A stretch of DNA of 64,000 bases from Streptomyces sp. NBC_00289 (GTDB lineage Bacteria; Actinomycetota; Actinomycetes; Streptomycetales; Streptomycetaceae). Both the position numbers and the translations under genes were made by a program. The notes below the pieces were generated by a model. That model saw only the letters and a list, made by a program, of their open reading frames with translations. It ran no database searches and was not told where the DNA came from. Each line of letters starts with the position of its first letter. The stretch's first letter is position 1. This document shows, piece after piece, positions 3,925 to 59,471 of this stretch. The stretch lies in assembly GCF_041435115.1 (NCBI RefSeq), contig NZ_CP108046.1, forward strand, positions 1,426,001-1,490,000, read 5' to 3'.

Positions 3925-5073
3925 ATGACTGCCCTCCACCACCCCATCGCCGTCATCGGCGGCGGCCTCGGCGGCCTCACCCTCGCCCGCGTCCTGCACG
4001 TGAACGGCCTGCGGGCCGCCGTCTTCGACCTGGACGCCTCACCCGAGGCACGGTCCCAGGGCGGCATGCTCGACATCCACGAGGAAACGGGTCAGGCCGC
4101 GCTGCGCGAAGCCCGCCTGTACGAGGACTTCCTGGCCAAGGTCCACCCCGGCGGCGAGCAGCTGCGCGTACTGGACAAGCATGCGCACGTCCTGCGTGAG
4201 GAAGCGGACGACGGCGCCGGGGACCGCCCCGAGATCGACCGCGGCGACCTGCGCGACCTCCTGCTGCACTCCCTGCCCGAGGGCACCGTCCGCTGGAACG
4301 CCAGGGCACTCTCCTGCCGCGCACTGGGTGACGGCCGGCACGAGGTCACGCTGGCCGACGGCACGGTGTTCACCACGGACCTGCTCGTCGGCGCCGACGG
4401 CGCCTGGTCCCGTGTGCGACCCCTGGTGTCCGCGGCGACCCCGGCCTACACGGGTGTCTCGTTCGTCGAACTCGACCTGCTCGACGCGGACGCCCGCCAC
4501 CCCGAGGGTGCGCGACTGATCGGCGGCGGCATGTTCTTCGCGCTCGGCGACGAGAAGGGCTTCCTCGCTCACCGCGAGACGGACGGCAGTCTGCATGTCT
4601 ACGTGGCCCTGCGCGCGGACGAATCATGGCTGGGCACGATCGACTTCACCGATGCCGACGCCGCCAAGTCCGCCCTGCTCACGTACTTCGACGACTGGGC
4701 CCCCGGCCTCCGCGACCTCATCGCCGAGGCGGACGGCCCGCTCGTGCCGCGCTCCATCCACGCCCTGCCCGTCGGCCACCGCTGGGCCAGGACGCCGGGT
4801 GTCACCCTCCTCGGCGACGCGGCCCACCTCATGTCACCCTTCGCCGGAGAGGGCGCCAACCTCGCCCTGATCGACGGCGCGGACCTCGGCCGATCCCTGG
4901 CCGAGCACCCCGGCGACACCGAGGCCGCCTTGGCCGAGTACGAGAAGATCCTGTTCCCGCGCTCCGAGGAGACCGCCAACGATTCTGCCCGGGGCCTGGA
5001 GATCATCTTCGACCCGAGCGCTCCCCGCCCCCTTCTCGACATGTTCGCCCAGTTCGACGCGGACCGGCACTGA
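3925..5073 (+). CDS. TetX-like class A FAD-dependent monooxygenase
   Basis: A 382-residue flavoprotein hydroxylase. The N-terminal Rossmann motif is GGGLGGL (about residues 11-17), and the FAD-ribityl motif GDAAHLMSPFAGEGANLAL lies near residue 295, both as in the PHBH/TetX group. SQGGMLDIHEETGQAALREA resembles the Tet(X) segment after the first FAD strand. Such enzymes use NAD(P)H and O2 to hydroxylate aromatic substrates, including tetracyclines and rifamycins. In a by-eye alignment, the position of the substrate-contacting glutamine of Tet(X) appears to be glutamate (FVELDL), so the tetracycline assignment is uncertain. AGGAG lies 7 nt before the ATG. The TetR gene just upstream probably controls it. 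Confidence 0.8.
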   Translation: MTALHHPIAVIGGGLGGLTLARVLHVNGLRAAVFDLDASPEARSQGGMLDIHEETGQAALREARLYEDFLAKVHPGGEQLRVLDKHAHVLREEADDGAGDRPEIDRGDLRDLLLHSLPEGTVRWNARALSCRALGDGRHEVTLADGTVFTTDLLVGADGAWSRVRPLVSAATPAYTGVSFVELDLLDADARHPEGARLIGGGMFFALGDEKGFLAHRETDGSLHVYVALRADESWLGTIDFTDADAAKSALLTYFDDWAPGLRDLIAEADGPLVPRSIHALPVGHRWARTPGVTLLGDAAHLMSPFAGEGANLALIDGADLGRSLAEHPGDTEAALAEYEKILFPRSEETANDSARGLEIIFDPSAPRPLLDMFAQFDADRH

Positions 5074-5304
5074 GACGGCCTCGCCGGCCACGGACAGACC
5101 GCTCACGTGCCGAACAGGCGGTACAACCCGTGCGCCGGGTACGTCCGTTGACTCGGCCGCCGCGTGGTTGTCCGAGTACGGAATCCACCTCTGAACCCCG
5201 CCGGGCCCGGCTCCCCGGACTCCGCACACCCCCGTCGGCAGCCTTCGGTTCGTCGCAGGTACTGTCTGGCAGCCCCACCCCGGATTCGAGGAACGGAACA
5301 CGAC

Positions 5305-5781
5305 GTGGACCCGGCAGACTGGATCACTCTCGGCGCCGCCGGCATCGCCCTGCTGACACTGATCACCAGCTCGGCCAGCGCCGCCCGGGCCCGCGTGAAA
5401 ACCATCGAGGACGCCTACATCGCCCGGTACTGGCAGATCCTGGACAGCTTTCCCACAGAGGCGCTCGTCGGCATACAGGGCCCGACCCCCCTGCCGGAAG
5501 ACGCCCAACGAGCCGTGCGTCTCTACCTGCGCCTGTGTGAGGACGAACTCGAGCTGCGCCAGCTCGGCTGGGTCGGCGGCCGGACCTGGGATCAGTGGCG
5601 CCCGGGTATCGAGCTGCAGTTGCAGCAGTGGCCGGTCGCCGACGAGTGGAATCCGATCCGCGACGGCCAGCGGGCACCCAGCCAGTTCGAGCTGCTCCGC
5701 CGCCTCGCCACCACACCCGGCTACGACCCCTATCAACCCACCCGGTTGGGCCGCATCGCCCGCGTCTGGCGTCAGCTGTGA
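5305..5781 (+). CDS. Small hypothetical membrane-anchored protein
   Basis: A 158-residue protein from a GTG start (VDPADWITLG), chosen because GAGGAA lies about 12 nt upstream and a single membrane segment follows at once (about residues 6-27, ITLGAAGIALLTLITSSASA). The rest is soluble, with an acidic helical stretch (LRLCEDELELRQLGW) and tryptophans (TWDQWRPGIELQLQQWP). No family was recognised. The topology suggests an N-terminal anchor with a cytosolic body. It stands alone between the monooxygenase and the lipoprotein. An upstream in-frame ATG at 5164 would add an unlikely arginine/proline-rich tail. Confidence 0.6.
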   Translation: MDPADWITLGAAGIALLTLITSSASAARARVKTIEDAYIARYWQILDSFPTEALVGIQGPTPLPEDAQRAVRLYLRLCEDELELRQLGWVGGRTWDQWRPGIELQLQQWPVADEWNPIRDGQRAPSQFELLRRLATTPGYDPYQPTRLGRIARVWRQL

Positions 5782-5962
5782 GGGTGCGGACCAACGGACA
5801 CCTGCCAACCCGGTCCACGTGGTGAGGTCGCGAGGATGCGGTCGGACGGACCCTCGGGCACACGGCGACACGGCGTGCAGCCGGTTGTCTTTGCCCCATT
5901 CACGGTACGAGGCTGAGAAGTTGTGGTCGAATCGGTTGATACCGAGGGCGGGGAGTCAGCGA

Positions 5963-6688
5963 GTGCGGTTCGGAATGACGGCGACGGTCCTCTTCACAGC
6001 GCTCCTGGCAGCCGGATGCCGGAGCGGCGGCAACGGCGACGGTTCCGACGCGAAGGTCTCCCCCTCAGTGTCGGGGTCGACGTCCCCGTCGGCGCCGGGA
6101 TCCGCGCCCGCATCCGCCGAGGCGTCGTCCGAGAGACCCGGCGACCCGCTCAGCGCCGCTCAGTTGAAGTCCGCCGCGCTGTCGGGCAGTGACGCGGACG
6201 GCTTCCAGGTCGCCGCCTTCCCGGCCAAGCCCGCCGGTGGTGGCACCGCCGCGCCCGCGGCCTGTCAGCCACTGGAGAACATGCGTACCGCTTCCCCGGA
6301 CCCGGCCCCCAAGGCGTTCGAAGGACTCCTCGCCTACGCCACCTCCGGCTCCGCGGCCGGTTCCGCCACCACTGTCGGCCTCATGGCCTACGAGCAGTCC
6401 GACGCGCAAGGCGTCCTCGACGGTCTCCGAACCGCCCTGAAGACGTGCACCGCCTACACGGGCGGCGTGCCCGCCCGAACCACCGCCGACACCGCCAAGG
6501 CCCCTGACGCGGGCGACGACGCCGTCGCCTTCCACCTGAAGACCGACGGGGACACCTCGGACGCCTTCGTCGTCGTGCGCAGCGGCGCCACGGTCGTCCT
6601 CTTCTCCACCGTGTCCGGCACCGACTCCGCGGCCGAGGTGCCCGAGGCGCTCGTCTCCGCTCAGATCGAGAAGCTGGAACAGGCCTGA
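5963..6688 (+). CDS. Secreted lipoprotein of unknown function
   Basis: A 241-residue protein from GTG (VRFGMTATVLFTALLAAGC) with GGGGAG 7 nt upstream. The N-terminus is a lipoprotein signal with a lipobox-like LLAAGC, so Cys19 should be lipidated and the protein anchored outside the membrane. A Ser/Pro/Ala/Gly linker (about 20-60) precedes a compact domain beginning near LSAAQLKSAAL, with two cysteines (PAACQPL and LKTCTAY) that could pair. Many Streptomyces lipoproteins share this sensor-like layout, but no specific family was recognised. It is convergent with the next gene. Confidence 0.7.
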   Translation: MRFGMTATVLFTALLAAGCRSGGNGDGSDAKVSPSVSGSTSPSAPGSAPASAEASSERPGDPLSAAQLKSAALSGSDADGFQVAAFPAKPAGGGTAAPAACQPLENMRTASPDPAPKAFEGLLAYATSGSAAGSATTVGLMAYEQSDAQGVLDGLRTALKTCTAYTGGVPARTTADTAKAPDAGDDAVAFHLKTDGDTSDAFVVVRSGATVVLFSTVSGTDSAAEVPEALVSAQIEKLEQA

Positions 6689-51343: not shown

Positions 51344-53182
51344 ATGAGTACTCCGGTAATCGACAACGCCATCGAGGACTACGCCCTCCTCAGCGACCTG
51401 GAAACCGCCGCCATGGTCGGCCGGGATGGCTCCGTCGACTGGCTGTGCCTTCCCCGCTTCGACTCACCCGCCTGTCTGGCCGCGCTGCTCGGCACCCGGG
51501 AGAACGGGTTCTGGCAGGTGGCCCCCCTCGCCCGCGGTCCCTGCACGCACCGGGCCTACCGGCCCGACACCCTCATCCTGGACTCCGTGTGGGAGACCGC
51601 GACAGGGACGGTCCGGGTCACCGACTTCATGCCGCCGCGCACCCAACTCCCCTGCCTGGTACGGGTGATCGAGTGCCTGTCGGGTTCCGTGCCGATGCGC
51701 AGCGAACTGCGCCTGCGCTTCCACCAGGGCCGGGTCGTGCCATGGATCCGGGTCGCCGACCAGTTCACGGTCGCGGTCGCCGGGCCGGACGCCGTGTGGC
51801 TGAGCGCCGACGGCACCGTGGGGTCACCGGGCGAGGAGGACTCCACGGTCGACTTCACCGTCTCGGCCGGCCACCGGCTCGCCCTGACGCTGGTGTGGGC
51901 GCCCTCGCACCGGCCGGTCCCGCCCGCCGCCCTGAGCGTTCCGGCGGAGACGGTCCTGAAGGAGACCGGCGACTACTGGCGGCGCTGGACCGGCCGGTGC
52001 CCCTACCGGGGCCCATGGCGGGACGCCGTGGTGCGGTCCCTCATCACCCTCAAGGCCCTCACCTACGCGCCCACGGGCGGCATGGTCGCCGCACCGACCA
52101 CCTCGCTGCCGGGGTGCGTCGGCGGCGAACGGAACTGGGACTACCGCTACTGCTGGCTGCGCGACTCCACCCGCGCCCTGTCCTGCCTGCTGCGCAGCGG
52201 CTACCGCGAGGAGGCGACGGCGTGGCTGGACTGGCTGGTGCGGGCCATCGCGGGCGACCCTGCCGACCTGCAGACCGTGTACGGGGTCGGCGGACAGCGA
52301 TTGCTGGCCGAGTCCGAGGCGCCCTGGCTGCCCGGCTACCGGGACTCGCGTCCGGTCCGCTTCGGCAACTCCGCCGTCGGCCAGTTCCAACTGGACGTGT
52401 ACGGCGAGGTGTTGGACGCCCTCTACGGGGCGGCTCAGGCGGGCATCCCGCTGCCCTCCCACGTGTGGAGTCTGGTCGAGGCCCTCATGGGCTTCCTGCA
52501 CCGGCACTGGCGGGAACCGGACCAGGGACCGTGGCAGGTGCGGGGACCGCGCCGCCAGTTCGTGCACTCCAAGGTGATGGCGTGGGTCGCCGCCGACCGG
52601 GCCCTGCGGATGGGCGAGTTGCTCGGCCGCAACGGCTCCTCGGCCCGGTGGCGCGCCATGCGGGACCAGGTGCACCTGCAGGTCTGCAGCCAAGGCTGGG
52701 ACGCGGAACAAGGGACCTTCACGCAGTCCTACGGCTCGGCGGAGCTGGACGCCTCCGCGCTGCTCATCCCCCGGCTCGGCTTCCTGCCCGCCGGCGACCC
52801 CAGGGTGCGCGGCACGGTCCGGGCGATGCGCGGGCTGGACGACGGCGGGTTCGTACGGCGGTACGCCCAGGGCGGCCGCGGGGTGCACGACGTGGACGGC
52901 ATGCGCGGCCGGGAGGGCACGTTCGTCGCGTGTTCCCTCTGGTACGCGCACGCTCTCGCCATGACCGGCCACGCCGAAGAGGGACGGGAGGCGTTCGAGC
53001 GGGTGCTCGGCACCCGTAACGACGTGGGGCTGCTCTCGGAGCAGTGGGATCCGCGCACCGGCCGCCAACTGGGAAACGCGCCGCAGGCGTTCAGTCATGT
53101 CGCCCTGGTAGAGACCGCGTTCGCCCTCGCAGCAGAACCATCCCCGAGTCCCCGTAGTCCGGCAGCGTCGGATCAGCGTTGA
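51344..53182 (+). CDS. GH15-like glucoamylase/trehalase-type protein with altered acid residue
   Basis: A 612-residue cytosolic protein. The N-terminal domain (IEDYALLSDLETAAMVGRDG, then SVDWLCLPRFDSPA) is the trehalase-like module; the catalytic (alpha/alpha)6 domain has GERNWDYRYCWLRDSTRALS near residue 261 and FVHSKVMAWVAADRA near residue 410. At the usual W-E-[VM]-R general-acid site this protein has WQVR (Gln398), and the usual LLSEEYD site reads LLSEQWD (Gln567, with Glu566 kept). Activity is therefore doubtful. It sits 91 bp after uxs on the same strand and may share its transcript. Its last 92 bp overlap the convergent methyltransferase gene. Confidence 0.82.
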   Translation: MSTPVIDNAIEDYALLSDLETAAMVGRDGSVDWLCLPRFDSPACLAALLGTRENGFWQVAPLARGPCTHRAYRPDTLILDSVWETATGTVRVTDFMPPRTQLPCLVRVIECLSGSVPMRSELRLRFHQGRVVPWIRVADQFTVAVAGPDAVWLSADGTVGSPGEEDSTVDFTVSAGHRLALTLVWAPSHRPVPPAALSVPAETVLKETGDYWRRWTGRCPYRGPWRDAVVRSLITLKALTYAPTGGMVAAPTTSLPGCVGGERNWDYRYCWLRDSTRALSCLLRSGYREEATAWLDWLVRAIAGDPADLQTVYGVGGQRLLAESEAPWLPGYRDSRPVRFGNSAVGQFQLDVYGEVLDALYGAAQAGIPLPSHVWSLVEALMGFLHRHWREPDQGPWQVRGPRRQFVHSKVMAWVAADRALRMGELLGRNGSSARWRAMRDQVHLQVCSQGWDAEQGTFTQSYGSAELDASALLIPRLGFLPAGDPRVRGTVRAMRGLDDGGFVRRYAQGGRGVHDVDGMRGREGTFVACSLWYAHALAMTGHAEEGREAFERVLGTRNDVGLLSEQWDPRTGRQLGNAPQAFSHVALVETAFALAAEPSPSPRSPAASDQR

Positions 53183-53867
53183 TGCGGGTCACCGCGAGCT
53201 CCTCGGTCAGCGGCGCGAACACCTCGGTGACGACGTCGGGGTTCACCGGGCAGCCCGGCCAGATCGAAGCGGCTCCGATCCGGTAGGTGGGCATGTTCTC
53301 CATGAACGCCGCCACCAGGTAGCCGCCCGGCACGACGGACTGGGCGAACCGGCCGCAGAACTCCGTGAACTCCTCGAAATCCTCGGTCGCGCCCTCGGCC
53401 ACGAAGTGCATCGACGCGAGCCCGTAGCCGCTCAACGGCACGGTCCGGACGTCGCCGTGGACGATCCGGACCCGCGCCAGCGCGTCCGGCAGGGTGGGCG
53501 GCAGATTCGGGTCGAGTTGTCGGCACAGCGCGTAGAACGGCTGCCAGCTCGCGTCCGGGCCGTGCGTCAACTGCCTCCTCAGATAGGCGATGTTGGCGGC
53601 ACCCCCCTCCACCGCCTCGATGCTGAGGCTCGCGGCGGCCGCGAGCATCAGCGGATACAGGTTGGGCCCGGCCCCGAACTCCAGAGACCGCTCGATACCG
53701 CCCGGCGGCAGGTTCCGGTAGAAGGCCGCGTGGTGGGCGATGACCGCCGCGTCGGCCTGGTGCAACTCACGGTAGTTCTCAGCGAGGTAGTCCTCGACGG
53801 GCCAGCCGTCCCAGTCCACATCGTCGTTGCGGGTCGGCGCGGGAGCGGTGGCCTCGGGTTCGGTCAT
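53091..53867 (-). CDS. SAM-dependent methyltransferase, NNMT/PNMT/TEMT-like
   Basis: A 258-residue cytosolic protein. VEDYLAENYRELHQADAAVI near the N-terminus and GIERSLEFGAGPNLYPLML (motif I) match the NNMT/PNMT/TEMT group of small-molecule N-methyltransferases and their actinomycete relatives. A long insertion (RQLTHGPDASWQPFYALCRQ) follows, then VRIVHGDVRTVPLSGYGLAS and SVVPGGYLVAAFMENMPTYR. It overlaps the end of the GGDEF-EAL/PLP gene by ATGA, so the two are coupled; an amine made by the PLP enzyme would be a natural substrate. That link is inferred. Confidence 0.8.
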   Translation of the reverse strand: MTEPEATAPAPTRNDDVDWDGWPVEDYLAENYRELHQADAAVIAHHAAFYRNLPPGGIERSLEFGAGPNLYPLMLAAAASLSIEAVEGGAANIAYLRRQLTHGPDASWQPFYALCRQLDPNLPPTLPDALARVRIVHGDVRTVPLSGYGLASMHFVAEGATEDFEEFTEFCGRFAQSVVPGGYLVAAFMENMPTYRIGAASIWPGCPVNPDVVTEVFAPLTEELAVTRINADPTLPDYGDSGMVLLRGRTRSLPGRHD

Positions 53868-56800
53868 CCCGGGTCAGCTCCCGGCCGCAGGGCGAAGCGT
53901 GTGGAGAGCCGGCTCAGCGCGTCGTTGAGCCGCTCGACGTCCTCGTCGGAGTTGAGGGCCGTGAGCTGCACCCGGAAGCCGACCCGGTCGCGGGGGACGA
54001 GGGGGTAGGCCGCCAGGGTCACGTAGATGCCCTGCTCCCACAGGAACGCGGCGACCGCGTCCAGGTCCGACGCGTTCGCGAGGGGGATCTCCACGATCGG
54101 CAGTTCGCACACCCCCGGCGTGGCGAGCCCGAGGCCGCGGACGTGCTCGAGCACCCGCACCGTCTTGCGGTGCAGATCGGCCCGGATCGCGTCGCCCCGG
54201 CGGTCGTTGACCTCCAGCCCGGCCAGCGTGGTGGCGAGCGAGGCCGTCGGCGAGGGCCCCGAGTAGAGGTACGGGCCGGCGGCGATCTTGAGATGGTCCT
54301 TGAGCGAGGGAGGCAACGCGATGAAGGCCAGCAACGACGAGTACGCCTTGGAGAAGCCGCCGACGAGCACGATGCCGTCGTACTGCTCGCCGGTGTGCCG
54401 TACCACGCCGTTGCCGCGGGACCCGTACGGACACGTCTCGCCGGGTGTCCGCTCACCGATGACGCCGAAGCCGTGCGTGTCGTCGATGTACAGGAGCGCT
54501 CCCCGCTCCCGGCAGATCCCGGCCAGCCGGGGCAGGTCGGGAATGTTTCCGCTCATGCTGTCGACGCCGTCGAGGCAGACGAGCCTGGGTTCACGGGAGG
54601 GTACGGCGCGCAGCAGGGCGTCGAGTTCGTCGGGAGCGTCGGCGCGGAAGCGGTACAGCGTCGCGCCCTGGCCGCGGGCCGCGACGCAGCCGTCGTAGAC
54701 GGTCCGGTGCGCGGTGGCCTCGACGAAGACGTGTCCCTGGCCCGCGAGGATGGGGATCACCGAGGCGTGGATCAGGGTGGCGGTCGGCAGCAGCAGCGTG
54801 TCCGGCGCGCCGAGCAGCTCGGTCAGCCGCTCCTCGATCTCCGGGTAGAGGCGTGGGCTGCCGAGCAGACGGGACCAGCTGGGGTGGGTGCCCCACTTTC
54901 GCACCGCGGGCTCGATGGCGTCGATGATCTCCGGGTCGCAGTCGAAGCCCAGGTAGTTGCAGGAGGCGAAGTCGATCAACCAGTGGTCCCCGCAGCGGAT
55001 GTGCCGGCCGCGCACCTCGTCCAGGACCGCGTCGCTCATGGGGCTGGTGCGCCGCAGGTGGTCGAGATCGGCCCAGCGGGGATCGTGCCGGATCTCCGGC
55101 GGATCGGTGGTGGTGTGGCGCATGGTGATGTGCTCCCTGTCTGCCGCTGGTGTGGGAGAGGACGCGCCGACGTTCCGGGCCGGTGGCCGGTCGCCGTTGC
55201 CGCGGCGCAGGACGACCTCGCCCTGCTCCACGGTCATCGGTGGGGCGAACAGGAAACCCTGCCCGAACCGGCAGCCCATGTCGGCCAGCATCTCTCGCTG
55301 CACCTGCTGCTCGACGCCCTCCGCGATCACCTGCAGACCGAGTGTGTCGGCCATACGGACGATGCCCTCGACGAGCGCGAACTGCCGGGGATCCTTGGGG
55401 ATGTCGTCGATGAACGACTTGTCGATCTTCAGTACGTCGATGGGAAAGTCCCGTAGATAACCCAGCGAGGAGAAGCCGGTGCCGAAATCGTCGACGGCGA
55501 TCCGCACACCGAGGTTCTTCAGGGATCGGACCATCGTGTCGATATGGGTGTCGCGCTGCATGAGCACCGACTCGGTCAGCTCCAGCAGCAGCGAGCCCGA
55601 CGCGAGGCCCGGTGTCTGCAGGGCCTGGCGCACCTCGTCGAGGAACGTGCCGTCCTGCCACTGCCGCCCGGACACGTTGACACTGATGTACGGCGTTGTC
55701 GGCCGGCGCGCCCGCTGTTGCAGCCGGGCCATGTCGGCCGCGGCGTTGTGCAGCACCCAGGCGCCGAGCGGCGCTATGTGCCCGGTCTCCTCGGCGAGCG
55801 GGATGAACTGCTCGGGCGGGACCGGGCCGTGCCGGCCACCCGGCCACCGGGCCAGCGCCTCGAAGCCGACGACCTCGCCGTCGGTGATGTCCACGACCGG
55901 CTGGTAGCGCAGCGCGAACTCCTGCCGTGTGACCGCCCGGTCCAGGCGCGCCTGGAGGTCCTGCCGCTCTGTCATCCGGACGCGCAACTGCGGCCGGAAA
56001 CGTCGCCATTGGCGTTTTCCGGCGGCCTTGGCCGCGTACAGGGCGAGATCGGAGAGGGCGAGCAGTTCCTCGGCGTCCGTGCTGTCCCTCGCGGTGGCGA
56101 CTCCCACGCTGGCGCAGACGCTCACGGAGCCGTCGGACAACTGGAAGGGATGGCTGAGGGTCTGGATCACCTGGGCGGCCAACAGCTCGGCGTCGAGGGG
56201 CTGTCTGGCGTCCTCCATCAGCACCGCGAACTCGTCGCCGCCGAGCCGGGCCGCGGTGTCGGTGCGCCGGAGCGCCCCCGCCAGCCGCTCCGACACCGCA
56301 ACGAGGAGCCGGTCACCCACCGAGTGCCCCAGGGTGTCGTTGACGACCTTGAAGTCGTCCAGGTCGATGAAGAGCAGACAGGTGAGCGTCGACTCGCGGC
56401 GGCCGCGCAGCAGGGCGCGCTCGGTCCGCTCCAGAAGCAGCGTCCTGTTGGGCAGCCCGGTCAGCGGGTCGTGGAAGGCGCGCTGGGTCAGCTCGTGCTC
56501 CAGCTGCCGCTGCTCGGTCACGTCCCGCAGGGTCACGACCAGCCCGCCCACGGTCCGGTCCTGGCGCAGGTCACGACAGCGCACCTCCACCTCGATGCGG
56601 CCGGTGTCCCGGACCACCCACCAGTGGTCGTGGGCCTCCTCGTGCCCGTTGAGCAGGGCGGTCAGTGTGCGGTGCACCCGGTCGCGATCCTGGGGATCGA
56701 CCAGCTCCCGCAGGGCCGCACCGGTCAGCGCGGAGGTGCCGAACACGGCTTCGGCGGACGGGCTGGCGTACCGCACGGTCGTGTCGTCGTTGACGATGAG

Positions 56801-58426
56801 GATGACGTCCGAGGCGTTGCGCACCAGGGTGCGGAAGTACGCCTCGCTCTCCTTGCGGCTGATCTCCTGCCGCAGCCCGACGCGGTCGGCCGCCAGCCCC
56901 GCGTGCGAGGCCAGGATCTCCAGCGAGCCGCGCATCTCGGCGAGCCGGCGCTCGGGGCCCGCGGCCAACAGCACGCCCGGGAGCTCGCCGCCGGCCGGGC
57001 GGTCGGGCGCGACCATGGGGCACACCAGTGCGCTCGGCAGGTCGCCGAGCCGTGCGGCGACATCGGGCGGAAGCTCGGCGACGGGCACCATCAGGGTGCG
57101 GTGGCGGACGATGTCGGCCGAGGGGGTCGCACTGACCGGCGCGGCGACCAGCCGGTCCACGTGCGCCCGCGACAGGCTCGCGTAGAGGTCCTGTGCCTTC
57201 CGGTCGGTCAGGAGCACGACCGCGTGGTGGGTCTTCGGCCCGAACAGCGCGTGCACCGCCCGGTCGCAGGAGCGGGCGATCTCCCGCGTCCCTCCGGCGG
57301 CGACGAGCGAGGCGGTCGCCCCGCGCAGGGCCAGCTCGCGCGCCACCGCCTTGCGGTGTGCCACGAGCATGCCCGCCAGACGCAGGATGACCAGCAGCAG
57401 CAGAACGCTGGAGAAGACGGCCAGCACGGTCGCGTCGCGGACCGTGCCGACCCGCTCCTCGAAGAGCTGGACCGCCGGCGCGATCAGTGTGGCCGCGGTG
57501 AGCAGCGCGAGTCGGCGCCAGGGCAGGAGCAGGGTCTGCGGCTGGGGTTGCGCCGAGGTCAGATCCGCCATGGACGGGTGCAGCGCGGCCAGTCCCCAGG
57601 CCGTGTAGAAGACGATCCAGCCGGAGTCCAGCAGGGTGCCGGCCTGCCATGATCCGTTGAGTTGCAGGATCCCGTAGGCGATGTCGAACAGGAGCAGGGT
57701 GAGCGTGCCCACGACGAGCAGTTGTACGGCGCGGTTGCGGCCGGAGAGGGGGCTCGGGGCGAGCAGGCGGATCAGCAGGGCCAGCACCAGGACGTCCCCG
57801 AGCGGATAGGCGATGCTGATCGCGCGCTGCTGCCAGGTCAGGCCTTCCAGCGTGGTCAGCGGCTGTACCAGGTAGACCCAGACCGGCAGTGCCAGACCCG
57901 CCGTGATGATCAGCGCGTCGAGCAGGCTGGGCACGTCACGGTCGGTCCAGCGGTAGCGGACGAGGCCGGACAGGCCGACGGCGAACAGCGGGTAGACGAG
58001 GAGGTAGCAGGCGTCCGACGGGGAGGGAAACGGGTTGGACGCCTGGAAGTACTGCTCCTGCACGTTGTAGTACGTGTCTCCCGCGGCGAAGGCCAGCAGC
58101 CCGGCGGCCAGCACCAGCCACGGCCAGCGGTGGACGGGCCGGTGGACGAGGACCCCGGTGACGACGGCCGCGGCACCCGCCAGCCCGATGACCGCCCACA
58201 GCGGCGCGCGCAGGACGGGAAAGGTCATGTAGAGACAGGTGACAGTCCCGACCAGGGCAAGGTAGGCGGCCATCAGACGGCGGGCCGGCAACAAGGGCAA
58301 GCGCCTCCCCGAGTTGGACGACACCGGGTCCGGAGCCCGCGTCAACCAGGGCTTTCTTCCACGATCGTAGGCACGTGACAGGCCCGGCTGCATCTCGGCG
58401 CGGGAGGCCGGAACCTCATCTCTCAC
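53864..58426 (-). CDS. Membrane PAS-GGDEF-EAL protein fused to an alpha-oxoamine-synthase-like PLP enzyme
   Basis: One uninterrupted frame of 1520 residues. About 50-355: some ten membrane helices. About 525-640: PAS domain (FRTLVRNASDVILIVNDD). About 645-810: GGDEF domain with intact GGDEF (729-733) and an RxxD inhibitory site (720-723). About 820-1075: EAL domain (EAL at 856-858; DDFGTGFSSLGYLRDFPID). From about 1102: a PLP enzyme of the KBL/AONS family, with SCNYLGF, DDTHGFGVIGE and Lys1360 in GGFSKAYSS. An internal ATG at 55123 with GGGAG upstream could also make the PLP enzyme separately (419 residues). So it may both make and break c-di-GMP and condense an acyl-CoA with an amino acid. 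The start is uncertain (GTG overlapping galE, or ATG at 58393). Confidence 0.8.
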   Translation of the reverse strand: MRDEVPASRAEMQPGLSRAYDRGRKPWLTRAPDPVSSNSGRRLPLLPARRLMAAYLALVGTVTCLYMTFPVLRAPLWAVIGLAGAAAVVTGVLVHRPVHRWPWLVLAAGLLAFAAGDTYYNVQEQYFQASNPFPSPSDACYLLVYPLFAVGLSGLVRYRWTDRDVPSLLDALIITAGLALPVWVYLVQPLTTLEGLTWQQRAISIAYPLGDVLVLALLIRLLAPSPLSGRNRAVQLLVVGTLTLLLFDIAYGILQLNGSWQAGTLLDSGWIVFYTAWGLAALHPSMADLTSAQPQPQTLLLPWRRLALLTAATLIAPAVQLFEERVGTVRDATVLAVFSSVLLLLVILRLAGMLVAHRKAVARELALRGATASLVAAGGTREIARSCDRAVHALFGPKTHHAVVLLTDRKAQDLYASLSRAHVDRLVAAPVSATPSADIVRHRTLMVPVAELPPDVAARLGDLPSALVCPMVAPDRPAGGELPGVLLAAGPERRLAEMRGSLEILASHAGLAADRVGLRQEISRKESEAYFRTLVRNASDVILIVNDDTTVRYASPSAEAVFGTSALTGAALRELVDPQDRDRVHRTLTALLNGHEEAHDHWWVVRDTGRIEVEVRCRDLRQDRTVGGLVVTLRDVTEQRQLEHELTQRAFHDPLTGLPNRTLLLERTERALLRGRRESTLTCLLFIDLDDFKVVNDTLGHSVGDRLLVAVSERLAGALRRTDTAARLGGDEFAVLMEDARQPLDAELLAAQVIQTLSHPFQLSDGSVSVCASVGVATARDSTDAEELLALSDLALYAAKAAGKRQWRRFRPQLRVRMTERQDLQARLDRAVTRQEFALRYQPVVDITDGEVVGFEALARWPGGRHGPVPPEQFIPLAEETGHIAPLGAWVLHNAAADMARLQQRARRPTTPYISVNVSGRQWQDGTFLDEVRQALQTPGLASGSLLLELTESVLMQRDTHIDTMVRSLKNLGVRIAVDDFGTGFSSLGYLRDFPIDVLKIDKSFIDDIPKDPRQFALVEGIVRMADTLGLQVIAEGVEQQVQREMLADMGCRFGQGFLFAPPMTVEQGEVVLRRGNGDRPPARNVGASSPTPAADREHITMRHTTTDPPEIRHDPRWADLDHLRRTSPMSDAVLDEVRGRHIRCGDHWLIDFASCNYLGFDCDPEIIDAIEPAVRKWGTHPSWSRLLGSPRLYPEIEERLTELLGAPDTLLLPTATLIHASVIPILAGQGHVFVEATAHRTVYDGCVAARGQGATLYRFRADAPDELDALLRAVPSREPRLVCLDGVDSMSGNIPDLPRLAGICRERGALLYIDDTHGFGVIGERTPGETCPYGSRGNGVVRHTGEQYDGIVLVGGFSKAYSSLLAFIALPPSLKDHLKIAAGPYLYSGPSPTASLATTLAGLEVNDRRGDAIRADLHRKTVRVLEHVRGLGLATPGVCELPIVEIPLANASDLDAVAAFLWEQGIYVTLAAYPLVPRDRVGFRVQLTALNSDEDVERLNDALSRLSTRFALRPGADPG
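55121..55137 (-). promoter_or_regulatory. Internal ribosome binding site and start for the PLP-enzyme half
   Basis: GGGAG (55133-55137 on the reverse strand) lies 9 nt before an in-frame ATG (55123) exactly where the EAL linker ends and the AONS-like domain begins. Starting here gives 419 residues, the normal length for this family. There is no stop between the two halves. Confidence 0.55.
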
Positions 58427-59471
58427 TCTCCGTCCGCCGCGCGGACCCGGCATAGCCCTGCGGATTGAGCCGCTGGAACCGCCAGGCGTCCCGGCACATG
58501 GCGTCGAGGTCACGGGTGGGGTGCCACCCCCAGGCACGGGTCACGGCACGCGCGTCGGCGACGAGTTCCGCCACGTCGCCCGGCCGGCGCGGCGCGGCCT
58601 CGTAGGGAATCCGCCTGCCGCAGGCGGCGGAGAACGCGGTGACGACGTCGAGCACGGAACTGCCCTCGCCGACCCCGAGGTTGTACACGTGCATACCCGG
58701 CGCGTCGGCGAGGTGGTCGAGCGCGACCCGGTGGGCCTCGACGAGGTCCATGACGTGGATGTAGTCGCGGATCGCGGTCCCGTCACGGGTGGGATAGTCG
58801 GTGCCGAAGACCCGCAGCCTGTCGTGTCGGCCGACGGCCACCTGGGCCACGTACGGCAGGAGGTTGTCGGGAACGCCGCACGGGTCCTCGCCGAGCAGTC
58901 CGCTCGGGTGGGCGCCGACCGGGTTGAAGTAGCGCAGGCACACCACGGTGTACTCGGGGCGGCGGCGGCAGACGTCGGAGAGGATCTGCTCGCAGGTCCA
59001 CTTGGAGGCCGCGTAGGGGTTGGTGGGCCTGGCGGGGGTGGACTCGTCGAGCGGCCCCGTGCCGGCGTCGCCGTAGACGGAACAGGACGAGGAGTACACG
59101 AGCTGGTGCACTCCGTGCTCGTGCATGGTCCGCAGCAGGGCGGTCGTGCCGCCGACGTTGGCGTCGTAGTACTCCACGGGCCGCTGGACCGACGCGCTCA
59201 CGCTCTTGAACGCGGCGAAGTGCACGACGGCGTCCACCGAGTGCCGGTCGAAGACCGCGGAGAGGGAGCGCCGGTCGCGGATGTCCAGTTCGTAGACGGC
59301 GCCCGCGAAGCGGCCCGCGATCCGTTCCACGCGGGCGAGAGCCTGCGGCGTACTGTTCGAGTAGTCGTCGACCACGATCAACTCGTATCCGTGGTCCAGC
59401 AGTTCTGCGCAGGCATGGCTGCCGATGAAGCCGGCCCCGCCGGTGACGAGGACGGTTGACGGTCCGCTCAT
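58416..59471 (-). CDS. galE: UDP-glucose 4-epimerase
   Basis: A 351-residue extended SDR. GGAGFIGSH (11-19) binds NAD; YSSSCSVYGD and NPYAASK supply the catalytic Ser, Tyr153 and Lys157; LRYFNPVGAHPSGLLGEDPC is the classic GalE block and YPTRDGTAIRDYIHVMDLVE follows. It interconverts UDP-glucose and UDP-galactose for the polymer. GGGAG precedes the ATG by 7 nt, and promoter/operator copy D lies 62 bp upstream. Its 3' end overlaps the GTG start of the GGDEF-EAL gene by 11 bp, so the two are probably co-transcribed. Confidence 0.95.
   Translation of the reverse strand: MSGPSTVLVTGGAGFIGSHACAELLDHGYELIVVDDYSNSTPQALARVERIAGRFAGAVYELDIRDRRSLSAVFDRHSVDAVVHFAAFKSVSASVQRPVEYYDANVGGTTALLRTMHEHGVHQLVYSSSCSVYGDAGTGPLDESTPARPTNPYAASKWTCEQILSDVCRRRPEYTVVCLRYFNPVGAHPSGLLGEDPCGVPDNLLPYVAQVAVGRHDRLRVFGTDYPTRDGTAIRDYIHVMDLVEAHRVALDHLADAPGMHVYNLGVGEGSSVLDVVTAFSAACGRRIPYEAAPRRPGDVAELVADARAVTRAWGWHPTRDLDAMCRDAWRFQRLNPQGYAGSARRTESER

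Follow-up and report, generated by a model that had tools for sequence, protein, structure and literature searches.

Why should one bacterial gene encode both a cyclic di-GMP (c-di-GMP) turnover protein and an enzyme of the alpha-oxoamine synthase (AONS) family? The question is raised by a gene of Streptomyces sp. NBC_00289, in the 64,000-nucleotide stretch NZ_CP108046.1 1,426,001-1,490,000 (the window; coordinates in Table 1 are window positions). One stop-free frame joins ten predicted membrane helices, a PAS domain, a GGDEF domain with an RxxD site, an EAL domain, and an AONS domain. An earlier note had read the frame in this way, and the open reading frame, Pfam matches, motifs, and an AlphaFold model bear it out: the RxxD site (RRTD), the GGDEF motif, the listed EAL motifs, and the pyridoxal phosphate (PLP) lysine are all present. 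The NNMT-like methyltransferase gene that the note saw overlapping the fusion by ATGA is likewise in place. That the two halves work together is well supported by comparison across genomes; the product may be a signal that the same protein reads.

A missed stop codon can be ruled out as the source of the fusion, since two sequences 89-90% identical over the AONS part share the fusion, along with a similar linker and the internal methionine; the earlier note had called for this comparison of frames at the linker. Coding bias in the linker is normal (GC 0.72/0.58/0.86 at codon positions 1/2/3). When long candidate proteins were searched with the AONS part as query, all 120 of the best 120 matches listed carried GGDEF, EAL, and Aminotran_1_2 in their precomputed annotation. 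At E<=1e-40, an AONS match occurs in 54 of 295 genomes of the genus, the window's own included; one of the 54, at 34% identity, is another enzyme, four others are disrupted or in fragments, and a further two have a single TGA inside the match. A class-wide sample gave matches in 36 of 394 genomes at E<=1e-80.

The loci compared were the regions around the genus and class-wide matches, plus relatives from a genome scan that kept the best 80 of 83; the scan was built on few peptide patterns, so distant loci are under-sampled. The fused or separate state was decided frame by frame. For the AT-rich Nostoc, Pseudoalteromonas, and Patescibacteria loci, on which a simple GC3 gene caller failed, genes were taken from lists of open reading frames. 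A quick tree was then built from 132 AONS sequences, with long-branch warnings that include L164 and L171. The tree excludes L033, L046, L047, L048, L170, L174, and L175, each of them partial, decayed, or a duplicate, together with identical rows, those whose AONS match was short, and three of the seven distant rows; L049 and L107 were taken in with their stops read as X.

In this tree the Streptomycetaceae form a clade of 80 loci (SH-aLRT 98): 64 are fused, 15 are separate but adjacent, and one is cut by a contig end. Fusion, of which the earlier note knew no described case, is therefore not singular but the commoner form of the locus in this clade. Relatives with two genes and a stop between them, which the note named as a refutation, do exist in those 15 loci, but there the genes stay adjacent, and L049, which is among the 15, has decayed. 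Fused rows account for 26 of the 27 on early branches of the clade, L049 being the remaining one; the window's subclade of 14 holds eight separate and six fused; and the tree requires a minimum of nine changes between the two states. Because the early branches are fused and the outgroups separate, we infer a single fusion near the base of the clade, followed by several splits. Decayed copies, with frameshifts, fragments, or stops, occur in four genomes of the genus (L046, L047, L048, and L049).

How is the fused frame used? Sister species whose GGDEF-EAL gene is separate have its stop codon in the stretch corresponding to the linker, and the start region of the separate AONS genes in L106 and L134 is near-identical to the internal ATG 55123 and its AGGGAG region. 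The internal methionine is kept in the two nearest sequences. Because the internal start resembles the real starts of separate sister genes and its methionine is conserved, the fusion is probably produced in the window species, which may produce the AONS enzyme alone as well. The internal ribosome-binding site of the earlier note thus survives, as part of a probable second start. Among the best 120 database fusions, the linker methionine is present in 55 and absent from 58, with seven unscorable; in those 58 of 113 scored fusions the enzyme would be made only in fused form, unless translation can begin at some other codon.

The association also extends beyond the Streptomycetaceae. Linkage was counted where a GGDEF-EAL protein lies no more than 7.5 kb from AONS; the names of the groups are in part inferred, Frankia-type standing for family f18 and Thermoleophilia-type including one Gaiellaceae metagenome-assembled genome (MAG). 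Linkage is found in 79/80 Streptomycetaceae rows, in 9/9 rows where the gene lies immediately upstream (Catenulispora, Phytohabitans, MAGs, and one f28 genome), in 12/14 Thermoleophilia-type MAG rows, in 18/20 Frankia-type rows, in 1/5 Actinoplanes-type rows, and in 0/4 distant rows. The ten-helix domain lies near AONS in 69/80, 8/9, and 14/14 of the first three groups; of the 11 Streptomycetaceae rows lacking a match, ten are loci about 4 kb long and one is at a contig end. Linkage is weaker in the Frankia-type rows than in the rest, with one weaker sensor match (L077). AONS is placed first, in reversed order, in 13 of the 14 Thermoleophilia-type MAG rows, and in L145, L150, and L151 the genes called for AONS and for the sensor share 4 nucleotides. 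Since a separate AONS adjoins the same kind of c-di-GMP protein outside the Streptomycetaceae, mostly reversed in the MAGs, the linkage is older than the fusion.

Such conserved linkage across lineages rules out chance neighbours. Loss of a stop codon could still have fused neighbours that share no joint function, and the interchange of states (nine changes) and the varying length of the linker fit this reading. It is disfavoured, and made highly improbable, by the association retained in reversed order in MAGs, by the 64/80 fused rows, and by the 58/113 scored fusions, among the best 120 matches, that have no linker methionine.

Some loci add a gene for a major facilitator superfamily (MFS) transporter. 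Other neighbours were recorded singly: an aat-like gene, named by eye, in at least two Frankia-type loci; a small membrane protein, MgtC-like by eye, after AONS in Catenulispora (L144 10304-10837, plus strand); and, adjoining AONS in Amorphoplanes (L162 6662-8722, minus strand), a protein combining MCP and PilZ, the latter a c-di-GMP receptor domain.

What kind of enzyme is the AONS half? The PLP lysine, stacking histidine, DxxH, and C-terminal arginine motif of the family are all found. Its best general model is bioF, at 175.6 bits; the cut-off of 426 (NCBIfam TIGR00858) excludes BioF membership. Serine palmitoyltransferase and KBL are rejected similarly, with best scores of 152.5 and 135.8 bits against cut-offs of 500-670 and 460-493 (the latter pair being the two NCBIfam glycine C-acetyltransferase models). 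A housekeeping enzyme of biotin synthesis (BioF) or threonine catabolism (KBL), as the top rank of bioF might suggest, is barely credible with scores so far under the cut-offs. The CqsA-type affiliation raised by the earlier note fails too: NF005526, the NCBIfam model of CqsA/LqsA-type autoinducer synthases, gives 64.1 bits against 428. The best solved relative is 2x8u (131 bits), and the closest solved relatives include serine palmitoyltransferases.

The nearest matches outside the Actinomycetota, at 46-51% identity, lie on two Patescibacteria-group MAG contigs (L164 and L175). In L175, a Peregrinibacteria MAG, the AONS gene is cut off by the contig end; a HAMP-PAS histidine kinase (4057-6219, plus strand) and a short-chain dehydrogenase stand a few genes before it. 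The next relatives (L166, L167, and L171; 36-41% identity) are attached to carriers: acyl carrier protein (ACP)-AONS in Pseudoalteromonas; FAAL-ACP-AONS in Nostoc, followed by genes for a short-chain dehydrogenase/reductase and an MFS protein; and a single polyketide synthase (PKS) module ending in ACP-AONS in a Caulobacteraceae MAG (L166 223-7806, plus strand). Because these relatives are carrier-attached, acyl-ACP or acyl-CoA is a plausible donor here. They presumably belong with the carrier-linked AONS enzymes of natural product pathways, the PigH and SxtA types; they carry carrier-protein, FAAL, or PKS domains, whereas here a c-di-GMP protein takes that place.

All three enzyme domains have intact motifs in the window, and nearly intact ones across the family. 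The PLP lysine is present in 75/79 Streptomycetaceae rows and 53/53 other rows, GGDEF and both ends of RxxD in 79/79 Streptomycetaceae rows, and AONS pairwise dN/dS is 0.17-0.23 in the six lysine-bearing pairs compared. One fused clade (L098, L103, and L053) keeps the frame open with a lysine-less AONS and has no methyltransferase; its dN/dS of 0.30-0.37 (pairwise, three genomes, one event) is relaxed yet constrained, and its AONS domain is a possible pseudoenzyme. Aminotransferase-like domains act as regulatory domains in MocR-type regulators, and this clade fits the idea that the main role of AONS is to bind a ligand and so regulate the c-di-GMP protein, with catalysis secondary. For the locus as a whole that is improbable, given how widely the lysine is kept, the free-standing AONS genes of many lineages, and the methyltransferase partner.

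That partner is kept in 76 of the 80 Streptomycetaceae loci, which upholds the tie between AONS and methyltransferase drawn by the earlier note. The window copy scores 24.8 bits with Pfam NNMT_PNMT_TEMT (gathering score 25), and 38 of 39 relatives match that family at E<=0.001. It has the fold of the PNMT/INMT/NNMT group of amine N-methyltransferases, from which it differs in sequence (15-18% identity in structural rows). Its best NCBIfam model is SCO2525_fam; membership of that family is rejected at 120.1 bits against a cut-off of 240 (NF040568). In the S. lydicus locus, a Cache-PAS-GAF-SpoIIE phosphatase gene follows the methyltransferase (L131 12383-15163, plus strand).

For the N-terminal part AlphaFold predicts ten long helices (pLDDT 87.5). 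Pfam assigned no family to the window's domain and a weak MASE5 match to 2 of 38 relatives. The same domain (NTM) is found with other outputs. In L142, AONS is separated from an NTM-PAS-GGDEF-EAL gene by genes for an NTM-PAS-histidine kinase and an MFS protein; in L153, it is preceded by genes for an NTM-PAS-hybrid histidine kinase, a small response-regulator-like protein (by eye), and an MFS protein. Both kinase sensors, from two MAGs, fall within the MAG sensor clade linked to AONS (12 rows, 100/99). Seven MAG genomes, possibly incomplete, have one or two copies of the domain each, at least one of them near AONS; the six other genomes searched have 1 and 1 (both f18, unlinked), 3, 3, 5, and 24. 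The sensor is the constant part of the locus, and its outputs, c-di-GMP enzymes or histidine kinases, are swapped.

A known Streptomyces protein has the same architecture. Passages of Al-Bassam et al. 2018 (PMC6205966) describe S. venezuelae CdgF (vnz02140/sven0451) as a 10TM-PAS-PAC-GGDEF-EAL protein, weakly expressed and, when C-terminally tagged, found in the membrane fraction; section 5 states that the signals for the sensor domains of Streptomyces c-di-GMP enzymes are unknown. A passage of a 2026 paper says that the function of CdgF still needs definition (PMC13232838). The 8.22-Mb genome G015 has exactly eight GGDEF genes, whose ordered positions fit the eight published S. venezuelae locus tags with r 0.9998, although residuals reach 75 kb and rank pairing alone raises r; two close gene pairs also fit (33 kb for 32 genes, 26 kb for 22). 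The G015 gene at the cdgF position (L065) is a fusion, without a linker methionine, and its protein aligns with the window protein at 58% identity across 1586 columns. The window protein is for this reason very probably a CdgF orthologue. It has the 10TM-PAS-GGDEF-EAL arrangement and intact motifs by which Table 1 of PMC6205966 defines CdgF orthologues, and its 58% identity to the G015 protein lies above the >=45% cut-off used there, G015 being taken as S. venezuelae from its gene positions.

The two thus share domain order, catalytic residues, and membrane location; they differ in that the published passages give CdgF neither an AONS domain nor a methyltransferase. The word aminotransferase is absent from the main texts, as available, of PMC6205966 and PMC13232838, and full-text searches of open-licence papers turned up no account of the fusion or of CdgF carrying an AONS domain. 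This domain seems to have gone unremarked in the searchable literature.

What might the joined halves do? We tentatively propose, as a serious possibility, a small-molecule signalling module composed of synthase, modifier, sensor, and sometimes exporter, in which an acyl-derived amino-ketone signal changes c-di-GMP. The AONS domain would join an amino acid to an acyl thioester, which is probably acyl-ACP or acyl-CoA, yielding an alpha-amino ketone; the PNMT/NNMT-like enzyme would methylate this, probably on the amine; and in some lineages the linked MFS protein would export the product. The ten-helix domain of the same or a neighbouring protein would sense the product or a relative of it, and thereby set the balance of GGDEF and EAL, and the cell would register what it has made as a change in c-di-GMP. 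In this scheme we infer rather than observe the acyl donor, the product, where it is methylated, that it is exported and sensed, and which way c-di-GMP changes. The specific version, in which one polypeptide makes an acyl-derived amino-ketone autoinducer, completed by an N-methyltransferase, and senses it through a ten-helix receptor that directly sets c-di-GMP, with kinase versions and an MFS exporter in relatives, is conceivable, though we hold it doubtful. Signalling is preferred because it explains a sensor with swapped outputs and the transporter. The idea of a signal system, already in the earlier note, is strengthened by a gene arrangement that fits it across lineages; the signal itself is still a supposition.

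The main rival reading is that c-di-GMP controls a biosynthetic enzyme: a membrane-tethered AONS and its methyltransferase would make a specialised metabolite or amino lipid, switched by local c-di-GMP or by PAS or membrane input, and the product would be the output. Direct fusion to a catalytic domain, conservation of both GGDEF and EAL, the biosynthetic nature of the carrier- and PKS-fused relatives, and the serine palmitoyltransferases among the closest solved relatives all suit this rival. It accounts poorly for L153, where the partner is a hybrid histidine kinase with neither GGDEF nor EAL, and for genes that are separate in 15/80 Streptomycetaceae rows and in other lineages; we judge it unlikely.

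Several observations weigh against the signalling proposal as well. The module is read from gene content, which is only compatible with quorum sensing, and deletion of S. venezuelae cdgF gave no developmental phenotype in the published passages (PMC6205966). For the linked MFS protein, no orthologue exists in the window's genome (best 30%), and 75/80 Streptomycetaceae rows have no linked MFS nearby. Frankia-type rows have the GGDEF-EAL gene with no ten-helix match near AONS (0/20 at E<=1e-10), nor is the domain near AONS in Actinoplanes-type (0/5) or distant (0/4) rows. The sensors linked to AONS do not form a single clade (5 changes of label versus 16 in shuffles, with 19 unlinked copies sampled). 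None of the 24 sensor copies of a Paractinoplanes genome is near its AONS, and since a distant copy is found in a probable CdgC, the domain also functions independently of AONS. Foldseek returned no match to the sensor model at E<=0.001, and its GPCR-like look is not significant. Lysine and methyltransferase are not always lost together: L025 has K changed to Q with the methyltransferase present, and L122 keeps K with the methyltransferase fragmented. Finally, the AONS gene of L164 stands alone among unrelated genes, with no carrier protein on AONS and no match in that locus to the ten-helix query.

The signalling proposal has its nearest parallels in the alpha-hydroxyketone quorum sensing systems CqsA/CqsS and LqsA/LqsS. 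In both cases an AONS-family synthase stands beside a multi-helix membrane sensor, and an acyl-derived ketone product would be expected. They differ in that the window AONS belongs to another branch (64 of 428 bits, NF005526), that here ten helices and a c-di-GMP output share one polypeptide, and that the partners are an N-methyltransferase and an MFS protein. A receptor-cyclase chimera from this field is described in PMC4821796.

The N-terminus of the fusion is uncertain. GTG 58426, the start chosen in the earlier note, overlaps the galE stop; ATG 58273 is the start implied by database entry P0003 (1469 amino acids). Homologues of two flanking genes recur within the fetched stretch of the 68 Streptomycetaceae loci examined: the galE-like gene in 21, and the GH15/trehalase-like gene in 36.

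Table 1. Features of the fusion locus and its neighbours, in window positions.
Feature	Position	Strand	Details
Fused open reading frame, 10TM-PAS-GGDEF-EAL-AONS	53864..58537	minus	1557 open codons, no stop
Probable start of fused frame	GTG 58426 or ATG 58273	minus	
Ten-helix membrane sensor domain (NTM)	57338..58330	minus	AlphaFold, ten long helices
PAS domain	56504..56839	minus	residues 567-678; PF08448 and PF00989 above cut-off
GGDEF domain	56012..56479	minus	residues 687-842; PF00990, 146.5 bits
RxxD inhibitory site (RRTD)	56258-56269	minus	within GGDEF domain
EAL domain	55238..55951	minus	residues 863-1100; PF00563, 251.3 bits; catalytic motifs intact
Linker, EAL to AONS	55124..55237	minus	
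Possible internal ribosome-binding site AGGGAG	55133..55138	minus	ahead of ATG 55121-55123; duplex energy -8.6
AONS domain	53867..55123	minus	PF00155 (Aminotran_1_2), 82.4 bits, residues 1188-1541
PLP lysine K1397	54347-54349	minus	motif GFSK
NNMT/PNMT-like S-adenosylmethionine methyltransferase	53091..53867	minus	258 amino acids; ATGA overlap with fusion, 53864-53867 (4 nucleotides)
galE-like epimerase	58416-59471	minus	directly upstream of fusion; stop overlaps possible GTG start
GH15/trehalase-like gene	51344-53182	plus	convergent with methyltransferase; ends overlap by about 90 bp

If the signalling proposal is right, CdgF would gain its missing function, and the c-di-GMP-controlled development of Streptomyces would gain a candidate extracellular input. 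A c-di-GMP enzyme is physically joined to a possible signal maker, and the pair recurs in other actinobacteria; the question of a signal is thus directly testable in a model species for which a cdgF mutant and a tagged strain have been published. The locus also points to an undescribed membrane sensor domain common to c-di-GMP proteins and histidine kinases.
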